A DNA stretch of 64,000 nucleotides, from positions 124,001 through 188,000 of the forward strand of contig CAMXCT020000255.1 of NCBI GenBank assembly GCA_947184155.2, written 5' to 3'. Each line of letters begins with the position of its first letter. Positions within the stretch are counted from its first letter, which is position 1. The notes below the pieces were generated by a model. The model worked only from the letters and a program-made list of their open reading frames with translations, did not search any database and was not told where the DNA came from. This stretch comes from Cladocopium goreaui. Taxonomy: Eukaryota > Sar > Dinophyceae > Suessiales > Symbiodiniaceae. Position numbers and translations under genes: made by a program. Shown here piece by piece: positions 46,401 through 64,000 of the stretch.

Positions 46401-49190
46401 GTATTAACCACTGAGAAAACATTTAAAAAAAGAAACATCATAGACTCACATTGACTCAATCCAGGCTTCCCTTCATATGCAGCACCTCCATTCAAGTCGA
46501 TGGGCACAAAGGAATCCACTTTGACATGAATCCACTCTTGATAATATTCACACCACAAGCGCAGGACATATTGTCCAATTTCCTGAAGCACGTTGTGGAA
46601 AAATCTGATTCAGCTTTCCAAAAGTCACCAAAAAAACAAAGGGGTGCTGTAGATTCCCCCATGTTTGTTCGATGATGTAACCTAACAAAGGGGGAAGAAA
46701 AAGACATCACATTTCAAATCACTCAGCTTATCTCAGTTTTTAGTTCATCCAGGTGTCATTGTGCTCCTTGGTGACAAAGAGATTCTTCACCGCTTCGGGG
46801 TACTCCGCCATGGTCGAGATCGCCGTAATCAGCCAGCAGTCACCTAAGGCGCCCTGCATCAGGTCCGCTGGGTCGATGCCGTCTTTGGGAAGCAGCGGCT
46901 TTTTGGGATGGATGTAGGAAATCGGACACCAGGCATGGTCCAAAAGTCGCCCGGCCACGCTCATCGCTTTATCCTTCTCGATCCCCACAGAGCGGTAATC
47001 CAGGGGGAAATCCGGGTCGACCCAGAGTTTCTCCAAGAAATCCTGCGGCTCTGATGAAAACCCAGGCTTGGATCCCCGGAAAATCCCAGAAATGTGTGTA
47101 TATATATATATACACTATATATACTATATATACTATATATATACTATATATACTACATATACTATATATACTATATATACTATATATACTATATATACTA
47201 TATATACTATATGTACTATATATATACTATATATATACTATATATACTATATATACTATATATACTATATATACTATATATACTATACATATACTATACA
47301 TATACTATATATACTATATATACTATATATACACTATATATATACTATATATACTATATATACTATATATACTATATATACTATATATACTATATATACT
47401 ATATATACTATATATACTATATATACTATATATACTATATACTATATATACTATATATACTATATATACTATATATACTATATATACTATATATACTATA
47501 TATACTATATATACTATATATACTATATATACTATATATACTATATATACTATATATACTATATATATATATATCTATATATATACTATATATATACTAT
47601 ATATATATACTATATATATATACTATATATCTATATATCTATATATCTATATATATACTATATATCTATATATCTATATATATATCTATATATCTATATA
47701 TCTATATATCTATATATCTATATATCTATATATCTATATATCTATATATCTATATATATATCTATATCTATCTATCTATCTATCTATCTATACAAATCTA
47801 TCTATACAAATCTATATATATATATATCTATATATCTCTATATATCTATATATCTATATATACCTATATATCTATATATCTATATATCTATATATCTATA
47901 TATCTATATATCTATATCTATATATACTATATATCTATATCTATATATCTATATCTATATATATATACATACTATATATATACTATATATCTATATATTT
48001 ATATATTTATATATCTATATATCTATATATCGATATATCTATATAAACTATATATCTATATATCTATATATCTATATATCTATATATACTATATATACTA
48101 TATATATACTATATATATATACTATGTATATACTATGTATATATACTATATATATACTATATATATACTATATATATATACTATGTATATACTATGTATA
48201 TATACTATATATATACTATATATATACTATATATATACTATATATATACTATATATACTATATATACTATATATACCATATATACTATATATACTATATA
48301 TACCATATATATCTATATATCTAAATATATCTATATATATATCTATATATCTATATATCTATATATCTATATATATATCTATATACATCTATATATATCT
48401 ATATATATCTATATATATCTATATATATCTATATATATCTATATATATCTATATATATCTATATATCTATATATATATATCTATATATATACATACTATA
48501 TATCTATATATTTATATATCTATATATCTATATATCTTTATATCGATATATCCATAAAAACTATATCTATATATCTATATATCTATATATCTATATATCT
48601 ATATATCTATATATCTATATATCTATATATCTATATATCGATATATACTACATATACTACATATACTATATAAACTATATATACTATATATACTATATAT
48701 ACTATATATATTATATATATCTATACATATATCTATATATCTATAGATCTATATCTATATATATATACATTATTTTCATTATTATTATCGTTATTATTAT
48801 TACTACTACTTATACATATATATATATACCATATATATATATATTATATATCTATACATATATCTATATATCTATAGATATATATATATATACACATTAT
48901 TTTCATTGTTATTATCGTTATTATTATTACTACTACTTATACACATACATATATATATATATACACATATAGATACAGATATGTGTGTAGAATTGTGTAG
49001 CTTTTGAACTCCCCTTTTTTTTCATGTGGTTTTCCCCAAACCCACGGGTTTTCCTGAGGAATGTTGATCCCAAGTTTCACCGCATCTCCAATGCCTGGCT
49101 GCGTCAGATCCACTTCAAACTTCTCAGCCATGGCGCCAGGACGAGCTGACTGGCGCTGAGTCACTGGGCCGAAACCATCCGAAACCTCGG
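43468..49190 (-). CDS. Calpain-like cysteine protease (multi-exon)
   Basis: A papain-fold calpain core is spread over at least seven exons. 49030-49190: N-terminal part, [18 protein letters not shown] from the ATG at 49131. About 46741-47052: [14 protein letters not shown] with the catalytic Cys. 46440-46582: [15 protein letters not shown]. About 45686-45826: [18 protein letters not shown]. About 44453-45144: catalytic His in [11 protein letters not shown] and catalytic Asn in [16 protein letters not shown]. About 44080-44346: calpain C-terminal/beta-sandwich-type segment. 43468-43822: charged helical tail, then TGA. All three catalytic residues are present, so an active, calcium-regulated protease is plausible. 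No EF-hands were seen in the window. Acceptors at 45827, 46583 and 45145 fit AG. Several donors are unresolved and may be non-GT. The intron between the first two exons holds a 1.9-kb microsatellite. A MITE lies just upstream of the 45144 exon. Confidence 0.88.
45192..45295. mobile_element. Hairpin MITE, TACCCTCTGGT family, best-preserved copy
   Basis: 104 bp. TACCCTCTGGTAATTTAACA and its exact reverse complement form both ends, and AGCTATGG/AATAGCT continue the stem. The TA at each tip could be a TA target duplication, as in Tc1/mariner-type MITEs. It sits inside an intron of the calpain gene. Confidence 0.88.
47085..48985. repeat. 1.9-kb TATATAC/TATATC microsatellite in the calpain intron
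   Basis: Units of ACTATATAT, CTATATAT and longer AT dinucleotide runs change gradually along the array. A duplicated unit near 48765-48815 and 48895-48940 contains ATTATTTTCATT and ACTACTACTTATAC. Open frames of up to 487 codons (Tyr/Ile/Leu/Ser only) arise because the repeats avoid stop codons. Confidence 0.97.
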
Positions 49191-54332: not shown

Positions 54333-55247
54333 TCATACTTTTAACAACTCGTGACGAAGGTAGCCACGATTTCGATTTTCTAAATAGTAATATTTTTGAT
54401 TTAGTTTTTCTTCAATCTTTTTGACGGTAAAGATTTCTTTTAACCAGTGTGAGGTTTGTTGTTTTTCTGTTATTCCTTTTTTCCTTGCTAATTTGACTTC
54501 ATCTCCAATTTCTATATCGGGATAAGTCCTATTTCTAACAGCCTTAGTTGATATGTTCATCTTCACTTTGAATTCATTTTCTTTTTTCCTTGCTTCGTTC
54601 GGTGTCATCCCTATTGTTGAGTGCTTCATCTTATTATTATACGTGAGCAAAATTTCAAATATATAGTCAGACCAATCGATGTTTTTCTTTCCTTTCTTCT
54701 CATCGGCTTCCACTCTTTTATACAATTGAAGTTTGAATGTTTTAATTGCAACTTCTGCAAATGGTGCATGACCTCTTGTGATGTAGTGGTGTATGCCTTC
54801 ATCTTTGAAATACTTTTCTAAGTAGCTTGTAGAAAAACTTGTCTCGTCGTCGGTGTAAATAAATTTTGGAACTTTACCCATTTTCTTAATGCCTTCAATA
54901 AATCCACTTGCTACATCTTCACCGTCTTTTGAAGGAAGCGGAAGAACTACCATATACTTACTGAATATGTCTATTAGAAGTAAAGCTGTTGTAGTTTTTT
55001 GTTTTTCTAAATCTTTGATAAAGAATAAGTCGGCTTGGTATTGCCAAAAGGCATGTGGTGGAACAAATTAATTTTCGCCTCTTGGACGGCGTTTCTCTTC
55101 TACGTGGTCTTTAAAAAACTTATCTACATCCTCCTTTTTGATTGATTTATCTTTTTTCCTTGCATCGGCTAAGGTTACTTGTTTAGAGCCATAGCCACTT
55201 TTATCGTAATATATATCACTAATTATTTTCTGTTTATTATCACTCAT
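54333..55247 (-). pseudogene. Retroviral-type (rve) integrase, interrupted by one stop codon
   Basis: A Polinton-type DDE integrase joins linear element DNA to the host chromosome. From ATG 55245-55247 the frame gives MSDNKQKIISDIYYDKSGYG and a basic linker. It is broken by TAA at 55068-55070 and then continues without shift through the catalytic core: first Asp in QYQADLFFIKD, second in YTDDETSF, Glu in HAPFAEVAIKTFK. The C-terminus is an SH3-like barrel ending YYYLENRNRGYLRHELLKV and TGA. The length of 305 codons is near the family norm; no chromodomain is seen. TAA ends other genes of the element, so it is unlikely to be read as sense. The upstream region has TATATTATAGC rather than the TTAAAG motif. 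Confidence 0.88.
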
Positions 55248-55310
55248 ATGCTATAATATAGAATAATATTTATTTTCAAAAAAAAAACTTTCAAAATAAA
55301 TATTGAAACT

Positions 55311-58300
55311 CTAATGAGCGCTCTTATTACAGTAATCACACCAGCTCTCACAGTTATTCACATGGTGGCTTATCTCGTTATCACAACGTTGTGCGGTGAA
55401 GTTGCTTGACATTTTTGTATTTTTGGTATCCAAATTAAATTTAACTCCACAGTGTCCGCAACAACCATGAAATCTTTCAAGACACCAATGTTCATCTATG
55501 TATTGTTCTTCATCTATTTCTCTCTTGGCTTTCTTATCTTGAAACTTATAATGTTCTACTTTCTTTTTGAAATAGTTCAGTAATAAGTTTCTAAACATCT
55601 CATCTTCTCCATCTTTGTTTTCATAAAAATATACTTTATTGAAGTCCTTACAGCATGTAATCGCGCAGTATAACCATTCTTTACTCATCAATTCAGTTCT
55701 GTTGAGTTCATGAATAATGATGTTTCCATCTATTGATGCTCCTTGCCTTGAATGCACTGTCGCACAATAGGCATAACGAAAATGTCTTTCAATAACATCT
55801 TTATCATATGTTCTGACATTATCTTTATCTTTGATGTCTTGTATTTTAATTTTTCTACCTTCTACATTTACAATATTCCACCTTGCCTTATATTCACATT
55901 CAGTTTTCCTTGCTCATCCATTTTATACAACCTACATATTAATGTCTCACCGACATTATATTCTCCTACTTTGCCTAATTTTTTTCTTATCTCATTGCTC
56001 ACTGCTTGACATCTGATGTTTGTATATGCGAGATTTTCACCCATTGTGATGTCCTTTGTAAATTTAAAATGCTTCCTTGCCCATTCTTTGATTGGCATAT
56101 CATGAAGCCATAAGTCATTATAGATTTGATTTAATTTTTCTCGGTTTCTTTCTCCATGTTCTGTATCCTTACCACCTACTCTTTTACAAATTGTTAAAAA
56201 GATGTTATACTTAAAAATTATATCAATGCATCCATCCACATAATGCTCAACATTTCTGACATTAGTAAATGGTTCTATGCTTGGTAGTTGTTTGACATCA
56301 CCTGCCCCTATGATAATTAGATTTGGATTATTGATAACGAACTGCCTAATTCTGTTCAATATATATGGACTTGCCATGTATATTTCATCAAAAAATATCA
56401 CATCAAAACCGCTATAATCAAACCATGGTAATTTATCTCCCTTATGAACGGGAACACTGAAAAAGGTATTCAATGTTACTGCATCACATTCAGTTTCTTG
56501 TTTTAACATGTTCTGTGGAACTACTGCCAAAACATTATAGCCCATTTTTTGAAGATGTTTGCCTATATGAGACTTACCCCCACCAGCAAATTTACTTCTA
56601 ATCATTACTTGTTTCTTTTCAATGATTTGTTTGGCAATTGCCTCAGTATCCCATTCATCGGGTGTTTCTATCCTTTCAGTTTTATATACCGGTATTTTTG
56701 GAATATCATTATTTTGCCAATGGTAGATGTTCTCAACTTGTTTCACATTGTCCTTTTCAAATCTCCAGTCGCCAATTTCACTACCAAATTTCAAAATCCT
56801 TTTAGCTTTCTTGAAGTCAGCGTATGCAATATGAAAAGCATCAGTTTTAATAGCATACACTTCGATGTTTTTAGCCTTCAGCCTTTCATAAGCATCATAC
56901 ATTTCAAAATTATGATTCTGTAAAAGTAATTCTTTCAGATACCTAAATCCGTTCATCATTTGTCTCTGACCGCTTACACTCACAATATAGTATTTGCTTT
57001 CTCTTGTCTTCTCTTTGCATTTCAATGTTTCGGGATTTCTTAAGCACTTGTATAATTTACGGTTTTCATGTTTAAAATCAAAATCATCGTCCCAAAATGG
57101 GTTATCATCATCAACTTCTCTCCACTCTTGGTATGTCTCCATCTCAACCTCATCTAATACATAAATTCTTCCATCATACTTTCTCTGATGAGCCAAAGCT
57201 TCCTTCAAATTGTTGAAAATCCTACTCACAGTTTTTTTGTTGTAACTCTTCTCCCATAATCCAAAAGCAATGTTTGCAATGGTCTTGTGAATTTTGTTAT
57301 TCTCAGTTTCATCATCACTGATTTTACTTTTGTAAAGTTCTTCTAATGCTTTGTTAAACTTAACTTTGTGTATGAAGGATGGCTTTTTAAATGCAATGAT
57401 TTTCATAGCGACACCTCTTTTAATCAATTCTTTCAGATGCTTGCCATACACCAGATTAAACTTTTTGTTGAAAAACACATTGGCTTGACATACTTTGACT
57501 AAATATAATGTATAATTGCCGTTCCTATGAACATCACATTTTGAATAGTCATAATGTTGCCACACATCAAATTCTTTGAACACCGGAACTTTTGAAATCA
57601 TTTTGGCTTGATATGAGTATGCCTTTCTCCTATCGATGCTACACTTCCTAACCTCATCAAAAATATCTCTTCCATAAAATCGTCCATTTGGAACTATTGT
57701 CCTACATTCATCCAATATCTTAACATCGGTTTCGTTATAATATGATTTAAAATTGTCATTGAAAAGTTGCTTGTGAAACTTGAACATTTCCGCACTGACT
57801 TTGTTATGTTTCTCTTCTGTATTTACCGCTATGTCTTCATCTATTTTATCCTCATTCAATGACTGTGTTTCAATTGTATATTTTACAGTTTTAAATTTCT
57901 TCTCAGCAATTTTGTGAGTGAGTTCTATGACAATTTGAGTTGTCCTATGTGCATTGTATTTCACTTGCGGTGTGTATCCAGATACTTTTAAGTCATGCAG
58001 TGCCTTGTTCAAACAATTGTTTTCCAAAATGATTTTGTATTCATCTTCTTCTTTCAGTTGCAGTAGGTCATCAATTGTTTTAATCATTTTGTATTTCAAT
58101 GGTTCTTTCTTATCATTTACGTAGTAGTTGTTACTTATTCCTCTTACATCTTTAGTGTAATCATCTCCATCCTTTCTTTGTTTGATTGATTGTAGGTCAT
58201 GGTTTAAAGTGTAGATATGGCTATTTGCAACTAAGCCATTGAAAGTAATGAATGTTTTACTGTTGTAGTTTTCGGGGTCATGCTTGTAAATTAAATTACT

Positions 58301-59299
58301 GTCAATGTCATAAAGTCTTGCTTTAATTTTAAATTCTTTGAAGACTTTTTCCATGTCATTTATTGATGCTCCATTCTGTTTAAACTCATCATCAGTCTTA
58401 CCGATACATTCCAATATTTTTTCTCTACACATGTTTCTTGCTAAGCTTCCCCTTTTGTGTTTAAACAATGTCTCTGAATAATGGTCTAATAGTGTATTCA
58501 TCCAACATTCATTATCCACATGTCCTTTTTTCTTGATTGCCTCTTTGAATTTTAAACAGTCTGGGTTAAGTTCTGTTTGCACATATCTATTGAAAATACT
58601 GACGTTATATTTTGCGTCAGTGAGTTCATCAGCAAAAATGTCATAGTCCTCAGCACTCTCATCGATTAGTTCAGCCTTCATGATTTTGATTGCATCAATG
58701 TAATGGTAAAGTTCGCCTTGGACAATGTCTTCAAAATCTTTGTCGGTTCTCATGATAATCATTAATTTTGCAAAATCCTTTTCTGTGTCACGGTCACCCT
58801 TGAAAATTCTTTCCCCTACCTTTTCTTCAATCCATTTTTGACTTTTGACACTTCCCGTTCTCTCCATGGGGTTCATTAAAAGTGGGTAGTATCTATTACC
58901 TTTATGGACAAAGCTTTTATTTTTGTTTGTTGTCCCTCTTTGAATTGAAAAAAGCATATACTTAACTGAATATAATTTCCCTTTTCTTTTCACTGTTGCT
59001 TTTTTTCTTCCTTCATTTGCTTTTTGAACTGCAAGTCTTACATTAATTCTTTCTCCGATTGGCTCAGCGTCTTGATATTTTGCAACCGCTTTTTCATATG
59101 CTTTCATTCCCTTTTCCTTTCCTTCCACTAATCCATTCAAAAGATTTTCTGCGGTTGCCATTTGTGAAATCTTTCTGTCCTGATAAAGTTCAATAACATT
59201 GTTGATTTTTTCAAGGGTTGTTGCATTAACCCTTCTCCTCTTTCTATCCCTCATGCTCCTCAAAATATCAAGATTTCTTACTATAGATTTTTTAGTCAT
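55311..59299 (-). pseudogene. Giant replication protein: family-B polymerase-like + SF1 helicase + HNH-like zinc module (one frameshift)
   Basis: The first frame, 55868-59299, is 1143 codons from ATG. Residues 1-500 are unassigned, with a Cys265/His361 pair (NECWMNTL, HIYTLNHD). Motif A is SIDRRKAYSYQAK (Asp556), a motif-B-like HKTIANIAFGLW is near 671-682, and motif C-like YAIKTDAFHI has Asp820. An SF1 (Pif1/RecD-type) helicase follows: Walker A AGGGKSHI (905-912), Walker B VIFFDEIY (967-974), motif III GDVKQLP (1000-1006). Another frame from about 55900 down to 55311 carries the helicase end (HSRQGASIDG, WLYCAIT) and an HNH-like module: CGHCG, QRCDNEISHHVNN, CDYCN. The shift lies near the A4 run at about 55905. 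The intact product would be about 1,330 residues. A CTTAAAGAAA motif is 31 nt upstream. The polymerase call rests on motifs only; no exonuclease motifs were found. Confidence 0.8.
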
Positions 59300-59330: not shown

Positions 59331-59340
59331 TTTCTTTAAG
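59331..59340 (-). promoter_or_regulatory. CTTAAAGAAA promoter motif, replication gene
   Basis: An exact CTTAAAGAAA on the minus strand, 31 nt before the ATG at 59299. It is divergent from the matching motif at 59386-59395. Confidence 0.65.
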
Positions 59341-59756: not shown

Positions 59757-60240
59757 CGTCATATGACCATGAGCCATTAGTCATATGATGTTTTTATCAT
59801 TTCACAGTTAGACCAGAAAAGATTTAAAATGACCAAAACATCATGACCTTCATATCATGACCTTGGTATCATATGACGCGACCATCATTATCATATGACG
59901 CGACCATCATTATCATATGACCAAACCATCATCATCATATGATGCGACCATCATCATCATTGTATCATCATATGGTTCATTTTATCATCAGGGATGAGGC
60001 GTTTTATCATCAGGGATGAGCCGTTTTATCATCAGGGATGATGCATTTTATCATCAGGGATGAGGCGTTTTATCATCAGGGATGAGCCGTTTTATCATCA
60101 GGGATGATGCATTTTATCATCAGGGATGATGCATTTTATCATCAGATATGACCCCGTCTCATACCCAACTATGACCCCGTCTCATACCCCCCTATGAGAC
60201 CGTCTCATACTACCCAATGAGGTGGGGTCATACCAAAACG
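59757..60240. repeat. Iterated palindromic and 22-bp direct repeats in the viral intergenic region
   Basis: Several TCATATGA(C) palindromes lie in about 24-bp units (TCATATGACGCGACCATCAT) from 59757 to 59945. Seven 22-bp units of TTTATCATCAGGGATGA(G/T)(G/C)C run from 59981 to about 60141. CCCGTCTCATACC repeats run to 60215. No gene lies here. Iterons in the only long gap of the element suggest an origin or a control region. Confidence 0.8.
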
Positions 60241-60634
60241 TGTATTTTTCCTTTCCGCGGAGGCTTTTCCACATTTTTCGGAAACAGTTTTCCAATTTCC
60301 TTGGAAAATGCAATGTTAAAGCAAAAATCCTTTATTTAGGTGGTGTTTCCGGATTTTCCGGAAACCGTTTTCCGGATTTTTCGGAAACCTTTTACCGGAT
60401 TTTTCGGAATTGGTTTAGCGATTTTTTTGGAAACCGGTTTGAATTTCCCCAAAAAGCACTTTAATTTTGTGATTGGCTCTCCAAATTTTGTGATTGGTTC
60501 TCTAAAATTTGTGATTGGTTCTCTAAAATTTGTGATTGGTTCTCTAAAATTTGTGATTGGTTCTCTAAATTTTGTGATTAGCACACAAATTGTAAATAGG
60601 ATAGAAAATATTGTATGTATTTTCTACCTTATTC
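60241..60634. repeat. TTTTCCGGAAACC words and 21-bp repeat
   Basis: 60280-60440 carries TTTTCCGGAAAC/TTTTTCGGAAACC inverted-type words. 60470-60580 has five 21-bp units TCTCTAAAATTTGTGATTGGT. On the minus strand the latter reads as NFREPIT heptapeptides within an 82-codon frame, but this is more likely a repeat artefact. Confidence 0.75.
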
Positions 60635-61591
60635 TTACACATCTTCATCATAGAAAAGATGGTGTACTTCAACTAACTCATGATTTTCATAATTAAGTAT
60701 TCTGTCTATATGTTTATCAATTGACTTTTCCAATACTTCCATTCTTGTATTAAACATTGGATTTTTGGATTTACCATATTTATCTATAAATTTATCAGGA
60801 TTATATCTTATGAAAATATACTTTCCAGAAAAGTCCATAAACAAATCATCATATCTAATTTCTTCATTTTGTTTGATGTAGTTTTTGTGTTGGTTCTCAT
60901 CCACTTCAATGCAAAGCATAGTATTATTAATGAGTTTTCTCAAATCTATTCTCCTTTTGGTTGCGCAACATCCTCCCTCTAAATCTACGTAAAAGGGTTT
61001 ATCATGTTTAAATCCATCATATTTAGAAAATACATAAGTCATTACTTGGATTTCTTTTGATTTCTTTCTAACTGTTAAGGCTCTGGGGTCTTCTGGAAAT
61101 AGATCAACAAAACAGTGACTACAAAAACCACTGAGTTTTCTGTTGCCTCTTTGTCTACATCCTGTGTAGTAAGGTTCTCTTCTGGATTTGCATATCTGGC
61201 TTCCATCACAATCTGGACATTGACTTCTTTGTTTGTTGTGCGTACATATTTCTGTCCCACCGCATTGTTTGCACGTGCTTCTCCTTTTCTGATGTTCGCA
61301 TATTTCACCACCATTGCATTCTACACAGGCGCTTCTTCTTTTTTGATGTTCGCATATTAAACTACCTTTGCATTCTACACATTTGTATTTGACTTTATTA
61401 TGTTGACATATCTCACTTCCTTTGCATTCTACGCATTGTTTTCTTCTCCTATTGTGTTGGCATATCTCACTTCCTTTGCATTCTACACAGATGTATTTGA
61501 CTTTATTATGTTGACATATCGCACTTCCTTTGCATTCTACACATCTGTATTTATATTTATTATGTTCACATTTCTTTCGTGAAACTACCAT
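60635..61591 (-). CDS. Zinc-repeat protein with PD-(D/E)XK-like nuclease domain
   Basis: 318 codons, intact, ATG to TAA. Residues 8-132 are seven tandem 18-residue units of the pattern IC.HN..K..C.EC.G.., each with a Cys-His and a Cys-x-x-Cys pair that could bind zinc. Residues 145-165 carry another Cys cluster (GFCSHCFVDLFPEDPRAL). The C-terminal half has RRIDLRK (Asp216) and MLCIEVDENQH (Glu229, Asp231), then IRYNPDKF. That pattern matches a PD-(D/E)XK restriction-type nuclease core. Similar zinc-repeat/nuclease proteins are known in algal giant viruses and protists, by recollection. Likely DNA-targeting in replication, recombination or competition. A TTTAAAGAAA motif lies 26 nt upstream. 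Confidence 0.75.
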   Translation of the reverse strand: MVVSRKKCEHNKYKYRCVECKGSAICQHNKVKYICVECKGSEICQHNRRRKQCVECKGSEICQHNKVKYKCVECKGSLICEHQKRRSACVECNGGEICEHQKRRSTCKQCGGTEICTHNKQRSQCPDCDGSQICKSRREPYYTGCRQRGNRKLSGFCSHCFVDLFPEDPRALTVRKKSKEIQVMTYVFSKYDGFKHDKPFYVDLEGGCCATKRRIDLRKLINNTMLCIEVDENQHKNYIKQNEEIRYDDLFMDFSGKYIFIRYNPDKFIDKYGKSKNPMFNTRMEVLEKSIDKHIDRILNYENHELVEVHHLFYDEDV

Positions 61592-62815: not shown

Positions 62816-63312
62816 ATGCAAAAATTGGATGTTCCAAAAATTGAACCTATTGATGAAAAGGTGTTTACATTCAATCAGTCAAAGTATGATATGGCGCCGA
62901 AACTTCCATTTAGAACTCTTGTGGTTGGGGCATCTGCCGGGGGAAAAACAGTGCTAATCAGCAACTTATTATTGAATATATATCGCAATTCATTTGAGCG
63001 TATTTTTGTATTCTCACCCAGTATTTTGATAGACCAGAATTGGGAAGCAGTGAGAAAATACATTAAGAAAGATATGAAAGTAGATACTGACAAAGAAAAA
63101 GTGTTTTTTGAGGAGTATGACCCAGAAGCACTACAAAACATCATCCATACTCAACACAAGGTCATTGAGCATGAAAAGAAAAACAAATTTAGAAAATTAC
63201 ATTCAATATGTATTATCATTGATGATATGGCAGAAAATCAAAAATTTATGAAATATTCAACTATATTAAATGGATTATATACTCGTTCAAGACATCAAGC
63301 AATATCAGTAAT
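62816..63312 (+). pseudogene. A32-like (FtsK/HerA superfamily) DNA-packaging ATPase, 3' truncated
   Basis: From ATG 62816 the protein reads FRTLVVGASAGGKTVLIS with Walker A at residues 38-45, ERIFVFSPSI, and Walker B ICIIIDDMAE around residues 133-138. It then reaches LNGLYTRSRHQAIS. Family members continue about 70-100 residues beyond this point with a sensor/arginine-finger region. Here viral sequence stops at about 63312, and a GC-rich repeat supplies only a short unrelated tail. The ATPase pumps genome DNA into capsids in PLVs, virophages and NCLDVs. It is transcribed away from the zinc-ribbon gene. Confidence 0.85.
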
Positions 63313-64000
63313 CCGCCGACCCCTGCCGTCAGCAGGGGGAGCGCGTCAGAGGAGGCCTTACTAGCAACAAGATGCCAGAAGGGGCGAAGAGTTTGTGCAG
63401 AACGAAAGCCGGCTCCAGAAGGACACGAGCAGGGTGGCAGTTGGCAATGTAGAAACGCAGGAAAAGTCAAGGTTTGGAGCTAGTTTCTAGTCGGTTCAGA
63501 AAGTGACGTTTGGCAGTCTGGGATACGGGCCGCGGGCCCAATCCGTCCTTCACTGCCATGGTGTTTTAGCCCTGCGACACGGTCCTTGGACGCCAGCTTG
63601 GACCGAAGCGGTGCAGAACGAAAGCCGGCTCCAGGAGGACACGAGCAGGGTGGCAGTTGGCAGTGCAGAAACGCAGGAAAAGTCAAGGTTTGGAGCTTAT
63701 TTCTAGTTGGTTCAGAAAGTGACGTTTGGCAGTCTGGGATACGGGCCGCAGGCCCAATCCGTCCTCACTGCCATGGTGTTTTAGCCCTGCGACACGGTCC
63801 TTGGACTCCAGCTTGGACCGAAGCGGTGCAGAACGAAGGCCAGCTCCAGGAGGACACGAGCAGGGTGGCAGTTGGCAGTGCAGAAACGCAGGAAAAGTCA
63901 AGGTTTGGAGCTAGTTTCTAGTCGGTTCAGAAAGTGACGTTTGGCAGTCTGGGATACGGGCCGCGGGCCCAATCCGTCCTTCACTGCCATGGTGTTTTAG
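63313..64000. repeat. 216-bp GC-rich tandem repeat (satellite), continuing past the window
   Basis: After a lead segment (CCGCCGACCCCTGCCGTCAG, 63316-63390) units start with GTGCAGAACGAAGGCC-type sequence at 63395, 63611 and 63826, spaced about 216 bp, with GGACACGAGCAGGGTGGCAG in each. The short frames in it overlap on both strands and are not genes. Confidence 0.92.

Follow-up and report, generated by a model that had tools for sequence, protein, structure and literature searches.

A probable Tlr1-like helicase joining a polymerase palm, an SF1 helicase and an HNH-derived zinc module in an endogenous polinton-like virus of Cladocopium goreaui

In a 64,000-nucleotide stretch of the dinoflagellate Cladocopium goreaui (contig CAMXCT020000255.1, positions 124,001 to 188,000, forward strand; hereafter the window), two overlapping minus-strand frames between 55311 and 59299 carry motifs of a family-B DNA polymerase, a superfamily 1 (SF1) helicase and an HNH-like zinc module, which raises the question of whether these belong to one natural protein and, if so, what that protein is and whether it is new. 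We consider it highly probable that the locus stems from the replicase gene of an endogenous polinton-like virus (PLV) and that this replicase is a Tlr1-like helicase, in which a protein-primed-type PolB palm, with no recognisable proofreading exonuclease, is joined to an SF1B (Pif1/RecD/Dda-like) helicase; a vOTU-like protease precedes the palm and an HNH-derived zinc module follows the helicase.

Palm and helicase in one chain

The first frame, an open reading frame (ORF) of 1143 amino acids (aa) at 55868-59299, contains motif A Asp556, motif B (K-x-x-A-N-x-x-F-G), motif C (K-T-D, Asp820), the Walker A sequence AGGGKS, FDEIYM and GDVKQLP. The second frame, open at 55311-55913, holds a 148-aa ORF, overlaps the end of the first and contains HSRQGASIDG, WLYCAIT and CxxC...QRxDN...H...N...CxxCN. 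These ORFs and motifs are present as listed in the original prediction, which had been made from the window's letters. The parts of the gene, from its N-terminal end, are as follows.

58985..59299, minus strand: N-terminal helical region, residues 1-105 (AlphaFold2 (AF2) model of residues 1-500)
58664..58984, minus strand: alpha/beta domain, residues 106-212 (AF2 model)
58181..58522, minus strand: vOTU-like cysteine protease domain, residues 260-373, Cys265 and His361 (fold and conserved Cys/His)
57830..58108, minus strand: alpha/beta linker from vOTU to palm, residues 398-490 (AF2 model)
56714..57802, minus strand: family-B (protein-primed type) palm, residues 500-862, with motif A Asp556, motif B 672-680 and motif C Lys818-Thr-Asp820
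55868..56650, minus strand: SF1B helicase, first-frame part, with Walker A, DEIY and GDVKQLP
55590..55913, minus strand: SF1 helicase late motifs in the second frame, HSRQGAS and WLYCAIT (UvrD_C_2 E 0.0014, below cut-off; PHROG exonuclease V / Dda-like helicase E<1e-3)
55311..55560, minus strand: linker YKxQDxKAxRxI... and HNH-like zinc module CxxC...QRxDN...H...N...CxxCN (PHROG match of the relative L001; count of Gln for Asp)

A first search returned 237 homologues at E<=1e-3, with identities from 94% to 40% among the 120 listed, so the motif set in the window is not due to chance; a second search, with a distant family member as the query, returned 234 (120 listed). Some near homologues are gene models with Skav names, which presumably denote Symbiodinium (Fugacium) kawagutii. 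From the 164 distinct proteins retrieved in these searches, pattern matching found seven core motifs (A, B, C, Walker A, GDxKQ, HSxQG and the zinc module at the C-terminus) within a single chain in 119, and all nine, with the Cys motif of the vOTU and FDE of the helicase added, in 109. The 45 proteins without at least one motif comprise 18 of less than 1200 aa, 11 of 1200-1289 aa and 16 of 1290 aa or more. The C. goreaui genome itself holds at least 57 matches to the fused gene, a lower bound obtained by scoring 40 of 604 candidates in the 1.17-Gb assembly (6,202 contigs); among the places listed, 17 fall within stop-free frames of at least 1,335 codons. Among viral sequences, the IMG/VR collection yielded one relative contig only (L001, 36% identity, in several frames, with the same domain order and an rve integrase nearby), and phage records gave no match to the window's long ORF.

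An AF2 model of the relative P0018 (predicted local distance difference test score (pLDDT) 79, predicted template modelling score (pTM) 0.69) had fold matches in the PDB that include Pif1/RecD2/Dda and phi29 polymerase, and in a viral structure library it matched H6WBE3 (E 3.7e-34 over 1030 columns) and mavirus polymerase (E 4e-10). Sequence comparison with the PDB gave one match at chance level for the single window protein and weak RecD/TraI rows (E 0.06-0.7) for a profile. Homologues and model together bear out the predicted order of palm, SF1B helicase and HNH-like zinc module in one natural chain, and because homologues with helicase and module in the same frame exist, the objection that such proteins might be lacking falls away.

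In the alignment of the 164 family proteins, the motif A Asp and the motif B Asn are invariant (164/164 each) and the second motif C Asp is present in 161, with gaps in the other 3. Motif C reads DTD in most family-B polymerases. All three predicted motifs are present here, but motif C has Lys for the usual first Asp, and this holds across the family (Lys in 160 proteins, Arg in 1, a gap in 3). Both a family-B palm with motifs A, B and C, seen in the motif counts and the phi29 fold match, and the loss of the first motif C Asp are features of Tlr1-like helicases found in this family. The PolB identity that had been proposed is supported by motifs and fold and not by sequence-profile comparison, where the palm gave no confident match to a profile of nine phage protein-primed polymerases (Prob 0.7%) and the score of its motif-C stretch was reached by 1 of 100 shuffles. 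The predicted polymerase assignment is therefore one of motifs and modelled fold; the polymerase matched is the protein-primed phi29 enzyme, with an alignment spanning 200-638, and the palm is putatively of the protein-primed type, which has the subdomains TPR1 and TPR2.

The replaced Asp could mean that the palm is catalytically dead and the protein a helicase on an inert polymerase scaffold, as suggested by a 2016 paper of Krupovic, Yutin and Koonin, which reportedly introduced the fusion and whose title speaks of an 'inactivated DNA polymerase'. While the family-wide replacement is consistent with such a scaffold, we consider it doubtful, since no family protein has lost the motif A Asp or the motif B Asn, and the first motif C Asp is also missing from active polymerases, among them those of mavirus and pipolins (PMC11071308). 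For the Tlr1-like helicases themselves, Krupovic et al. (2024) predicted polymerase activity despite the loss (PMC11071308).

Pfam searches of the window's two gene pieces returned only AAA_30 and UvrD_C_2, both below threshold; Pfam and PHROG matches combined with the fold matches identify the SF1 helicase C-terminal to the palm, as in Tlr1-like helicases. The N-terminal ~500 residues, which had been left unassigned, contain the vOTU-like domain, and a vOTU with catalytic Cys and His upstream of the palm is again a feature of Tlr1-like helicases. In the AF2 model, pLDDT is 75-89 for residues 1-80 and 55-62 for residues 81-105, and residues 106-212 form strands (108-118, 130-139, 147-153 and 203-211) and helices (173-194), which by position only correspond to the terminal-protein-like domain of Tlr1-like helicases. 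The gap from vOTU to palm is only ~125 residues. The structural alignment of a relative to phi29 polymerase begins near the linker at 398-490, and this range, together with inspection by eye, suggested a shortened exonuclease remnant, which we do not claim as the profile tests were negative or borderline and not significant: segment-to-segment hhalign gave the expected register, yet its score was reached in 16 of 200 column shuffles, and with the whole polymerase profile as target the top match fell elsewhere.

In the working that we propose, the polymerase would start at the element ends on a protein primer, and the vOTU may free the priming or N-terminal part. Vesting primer release in vOTU cleavage is a proposal of the 2024 authors (PMC11071308). 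The fused helicase would open the duplex ahead of the palm, so that polymerase and helicase in one chain could copy the linear element DNA by strand displacement, and the C-terminal zinc module, by our own inference, would hold DNA without cutting it.

The C-terminal zinc module

The original prediction credited the HNH-like module with DNA cutting. The zinc-module motif is indeed present, with two CxxC pairs and a terminal Asn (complete in 132 of 164 family proteins, the last Asn in 130 of these 132), but Gln stands at the core position where relatives have Asp, and the cutting role is not supported, as the module lacks that residue. The core reads Asp-Arg in L001, L003, L004 and PacI, and Gln-Arg in 132/132 complete modules of the fused family, counted among the 164 proteins (32 without a complete module by pattern) with a pattern that permits any residue at the core site. 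Hence the Asp ahead of the core Arg, which marks the active DRxDN / endonuclease VII / PacI HNH, is missing from the fused family. The same was read in the genome of C. goreaui, where all 24 module-bearing copies in a selection of 26 from the listed places have Gln-Arg, the frames of the other two (L029 and L030) ending earlier. As the copies read at this site reach from close kin of the window gene to a clade at 38% identity, the change from Asp to Gln is old. In PacI and T4 endonuclease VII, the core Asp is a metal ligand.

Pairwise ratios of non-synonymous to synonymous substitution (dN/dS) were 0.07-0.49 for linker plus module (median 0.24, 55 pairs) and 0.08-0.60 for the helicase tail (median 0.18, 63 pairs); 16 of 22 loci entered, six being missed by the linker pattern, and the pairs, restricted to those of intermediate synonymous difference, are non-independent. 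These low values indicate that the module seems to be retained, though probably not as a canonical nuclease. Judged from sequence, it seems to be a zinc module without the probable catalytic residue, yet under apparent purifying selection.

If the C-terminal module were an active nuclease of the HNH type, homing or nicking, this would agree with the published label 'homing endonuclease' (PMC11071308, PMC12220804). It would also agree with the endonuclease VII matches of relatives, namely the C-terminus of L001 (PHROG, E 3e-7; that of P0114 is weak, 0.013) and two phage proteins from tblastn that carry the same module, one of which aligns to PacI (E 0.004), and with the retention of Arg, His and the first Asn in all 132 complete modules and of the last Asn in 130. 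We nevertheless regard it as unlikely, because the Asp of DRxDN is Gln in all 132 and in the 24 own-genome module copies, and because the module occurs in every diverged group sampled with a mean identity of 0.54 (0.51 for the palm), a pattern that does not point to a scattered homing gene. Correlations of pairwise distances (27 non-redundant of 43 rows kept from 49) gave rho 0.51 for HNH and palm, 0.31 and 0.25 for HNH and helicase and 0.30 for palm and helicase; since the last value is itself just 0.30, this is a weak test of HNH mobility.

A reading that may hold is that the module descends from an HNH nuclease of the endonuclease VII/PacI type whose metal-binding Asp was lost before the family split, and that selection then retained it as a working part of the replicase, as a domesticated pseudo-nuclease and not a selfish homing endonuclease. 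Such a pseudo-nuclease might, for instance, help to hold the replication fork, the ends of the element or the integrase of the neighbouring gene. Literature searches on related topics, none worded for the Asp-to-Gln change, returned no report of it.

The window copy and its element

The window gene is a broken copy, a fossil among many copies, some of which have open frames, as it is split into two frames and lies in a truncated element. Two adjacent overlapping genes, or a programmed frameshift, would suit the two open and overlapping frames of this copy, but are very improbable given the single-frame motifs in 119/164 relatives, the 17 own-genome places with long open frames and the adjoining integrase, which likewise looks broken. 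We read the region ~53.4-63.4 kb as a truncated endogenous element; it is mostly 30-34% guanine plus cytosine (GC), compared with 38-52% for most of the remaining window. Two further genes of the element were recognised.

54333..55067, minus strand: rve (retrovirus-type) integrase, C-terminal part (Pfam rve E 1.4e-7, 0.4 bit under cut-off)
62816..63364, plus strand: A32-type packaging ATPase, cut off near a 215-bp tandem repeat (Pfam Pox_A32 38.5 bits, above cut-off)

An A32-type ATPase and an integrase are expected of a PLV, and both were found, Pox_A32 above its cut-off and rve just below. The integrase looks broken; a stretch resembling the start of relatives' integrases lies in another frame at 55068-55250. 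Integrase homologues near the fused gene elsewhere in the genome also fall below cut-off (rve E 4.8e-5 and 1.9e-6), and the window and one relative have an rve-type integrase right beside the fused gene, while a second relative has one at a distance of one ORF. No major capsid protein was recognised in the truncated window element. In two relatives, proteins of similar size lie near the fused gene, at L022:4105-5670 (522 aa) and L024:4418-5956 (513 aa), the first an unconfirmed capsid candidate by eye, and stand-alone GIY-YIG genes (L022:3226-3816, L024:6012-6926) lie close to the HNH-bearing replicase gene.

Within the element, 60635-61591 (minus strand) encodes a protein of tandem Cys/His zinc-type repeats with no Pfam match, in which the repeats give way to a stretch that we take to resemble nuclease tails of large DNA viruses. 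The 9-mer ACTTAAAGA occurs four times in the window, always inside the element (53852, 54303, 59333 (-) and 59385 (+)), against 0.63 expected and with 0/100 shuffles reaching 4; the two occurrences at 59333/59385, which have the fused gene on one side and a divergent 86-aa ORF on the other, resemble a viral promoter motif. In three of the four close copies, including the window, for which a start was found (7 loci tried), the spacing from the 8-mer CTTAAAGA to the start codon is identical. Several packed short tandem arrays (21-23 bp units) lie upstream of the fused gene at 59867-60580, inside the element, and at 47099-48892 there is ~1.8 kb of degenerate TA-type repeat of ~15% GC with a strong C-over-G skew. 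Rfam and tRNA scans of the window returned nothing at their thresholds.

The genome also has DNA_pol_B_2 polymerases above the Pfam cut-off (6 matches, L046, L047 and L051 among them); the printed frames show exonuclease- and palm-like motifs and, by eye, no helicase, so both types of replicase seem to coexist in it. The pPolB-S1H replicase family is multi-copy in this genome and is nearly missed by standard domain searches, which may explain some of the protist endogenous viral elements with no detectable polymerase and a helicase 'fused to an unknown domain' (PMC10120064).

Comparison with known systems

The original prediction held that no protein with this exact order had been described. 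Krupovic et al. (2024) describe just such an order for Tlr1-like helicases, C-terminal HNH included, and place these pPolB-S1H fusions in PLVs and transpovirons (PMC11071308). They share with the window family a variable N-terminus, a terminal-protein-like domain (assigned here by position), a vOTU, a palm with no recognisable exonuclease, an SF1 helicase and a C-terminal HNH or GIY-YIG, as well as the loss of the first motif C Asp and, in the Tlr1 element, an rve integrase; a possible difference is the Gln for Asp in the HNH of the window family, compared here with the published HNH by description (PMC11071308).

Nor is the HNH-helicase fusion itself wholly new, having been in print since 2025 for Symbiodinium PLVs (n = 12), although the HNH of these and of the cryptophyte PLV fusions is called N-terminal there, while that of the window protein is C-terminal, and the text available mentions neither palm nor vOTU for that fusion (PMC12220804). 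In cluster C1 of R. lacustris an HNH-helicase gene lies directly upstream of an rve integrase (PMC12220804), which is like the window. The Helicase SF1-pPolB of OmPLV from Oxyrrhis marina likewise combines SF1 helicase and pPolB in one large, often fragmented protein of a dinoflagellate PLV, but has an N-terminal helicase and a complete exonuclease, with no vOTU found and no HNH mentioned in the portion of the paper available, and its authors judge the reverse order independent of the Tlr fusions (PMC12721341). The window protein does not have that order, its helicase coming after the palm.

Compared with single-module proteins, phi29 DNA polymerase (PDB 2pyj) is unlike the window protein in having no helicase fusion, an annotated exonuclease and DTD as motif C, and the PacI / endonuclease VII-type HNH has the DRxDN-like core and CxxCN end seen in relatives, whereas the fused family has Gln for Asp. 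With this Gln fixed in a module under apparent purifying selection, the published 'homing endonuclease' label becomes a testable question. The architecture is already described and the fused protein is a further case of it, the Asp-to-Gln detail being the odd point.
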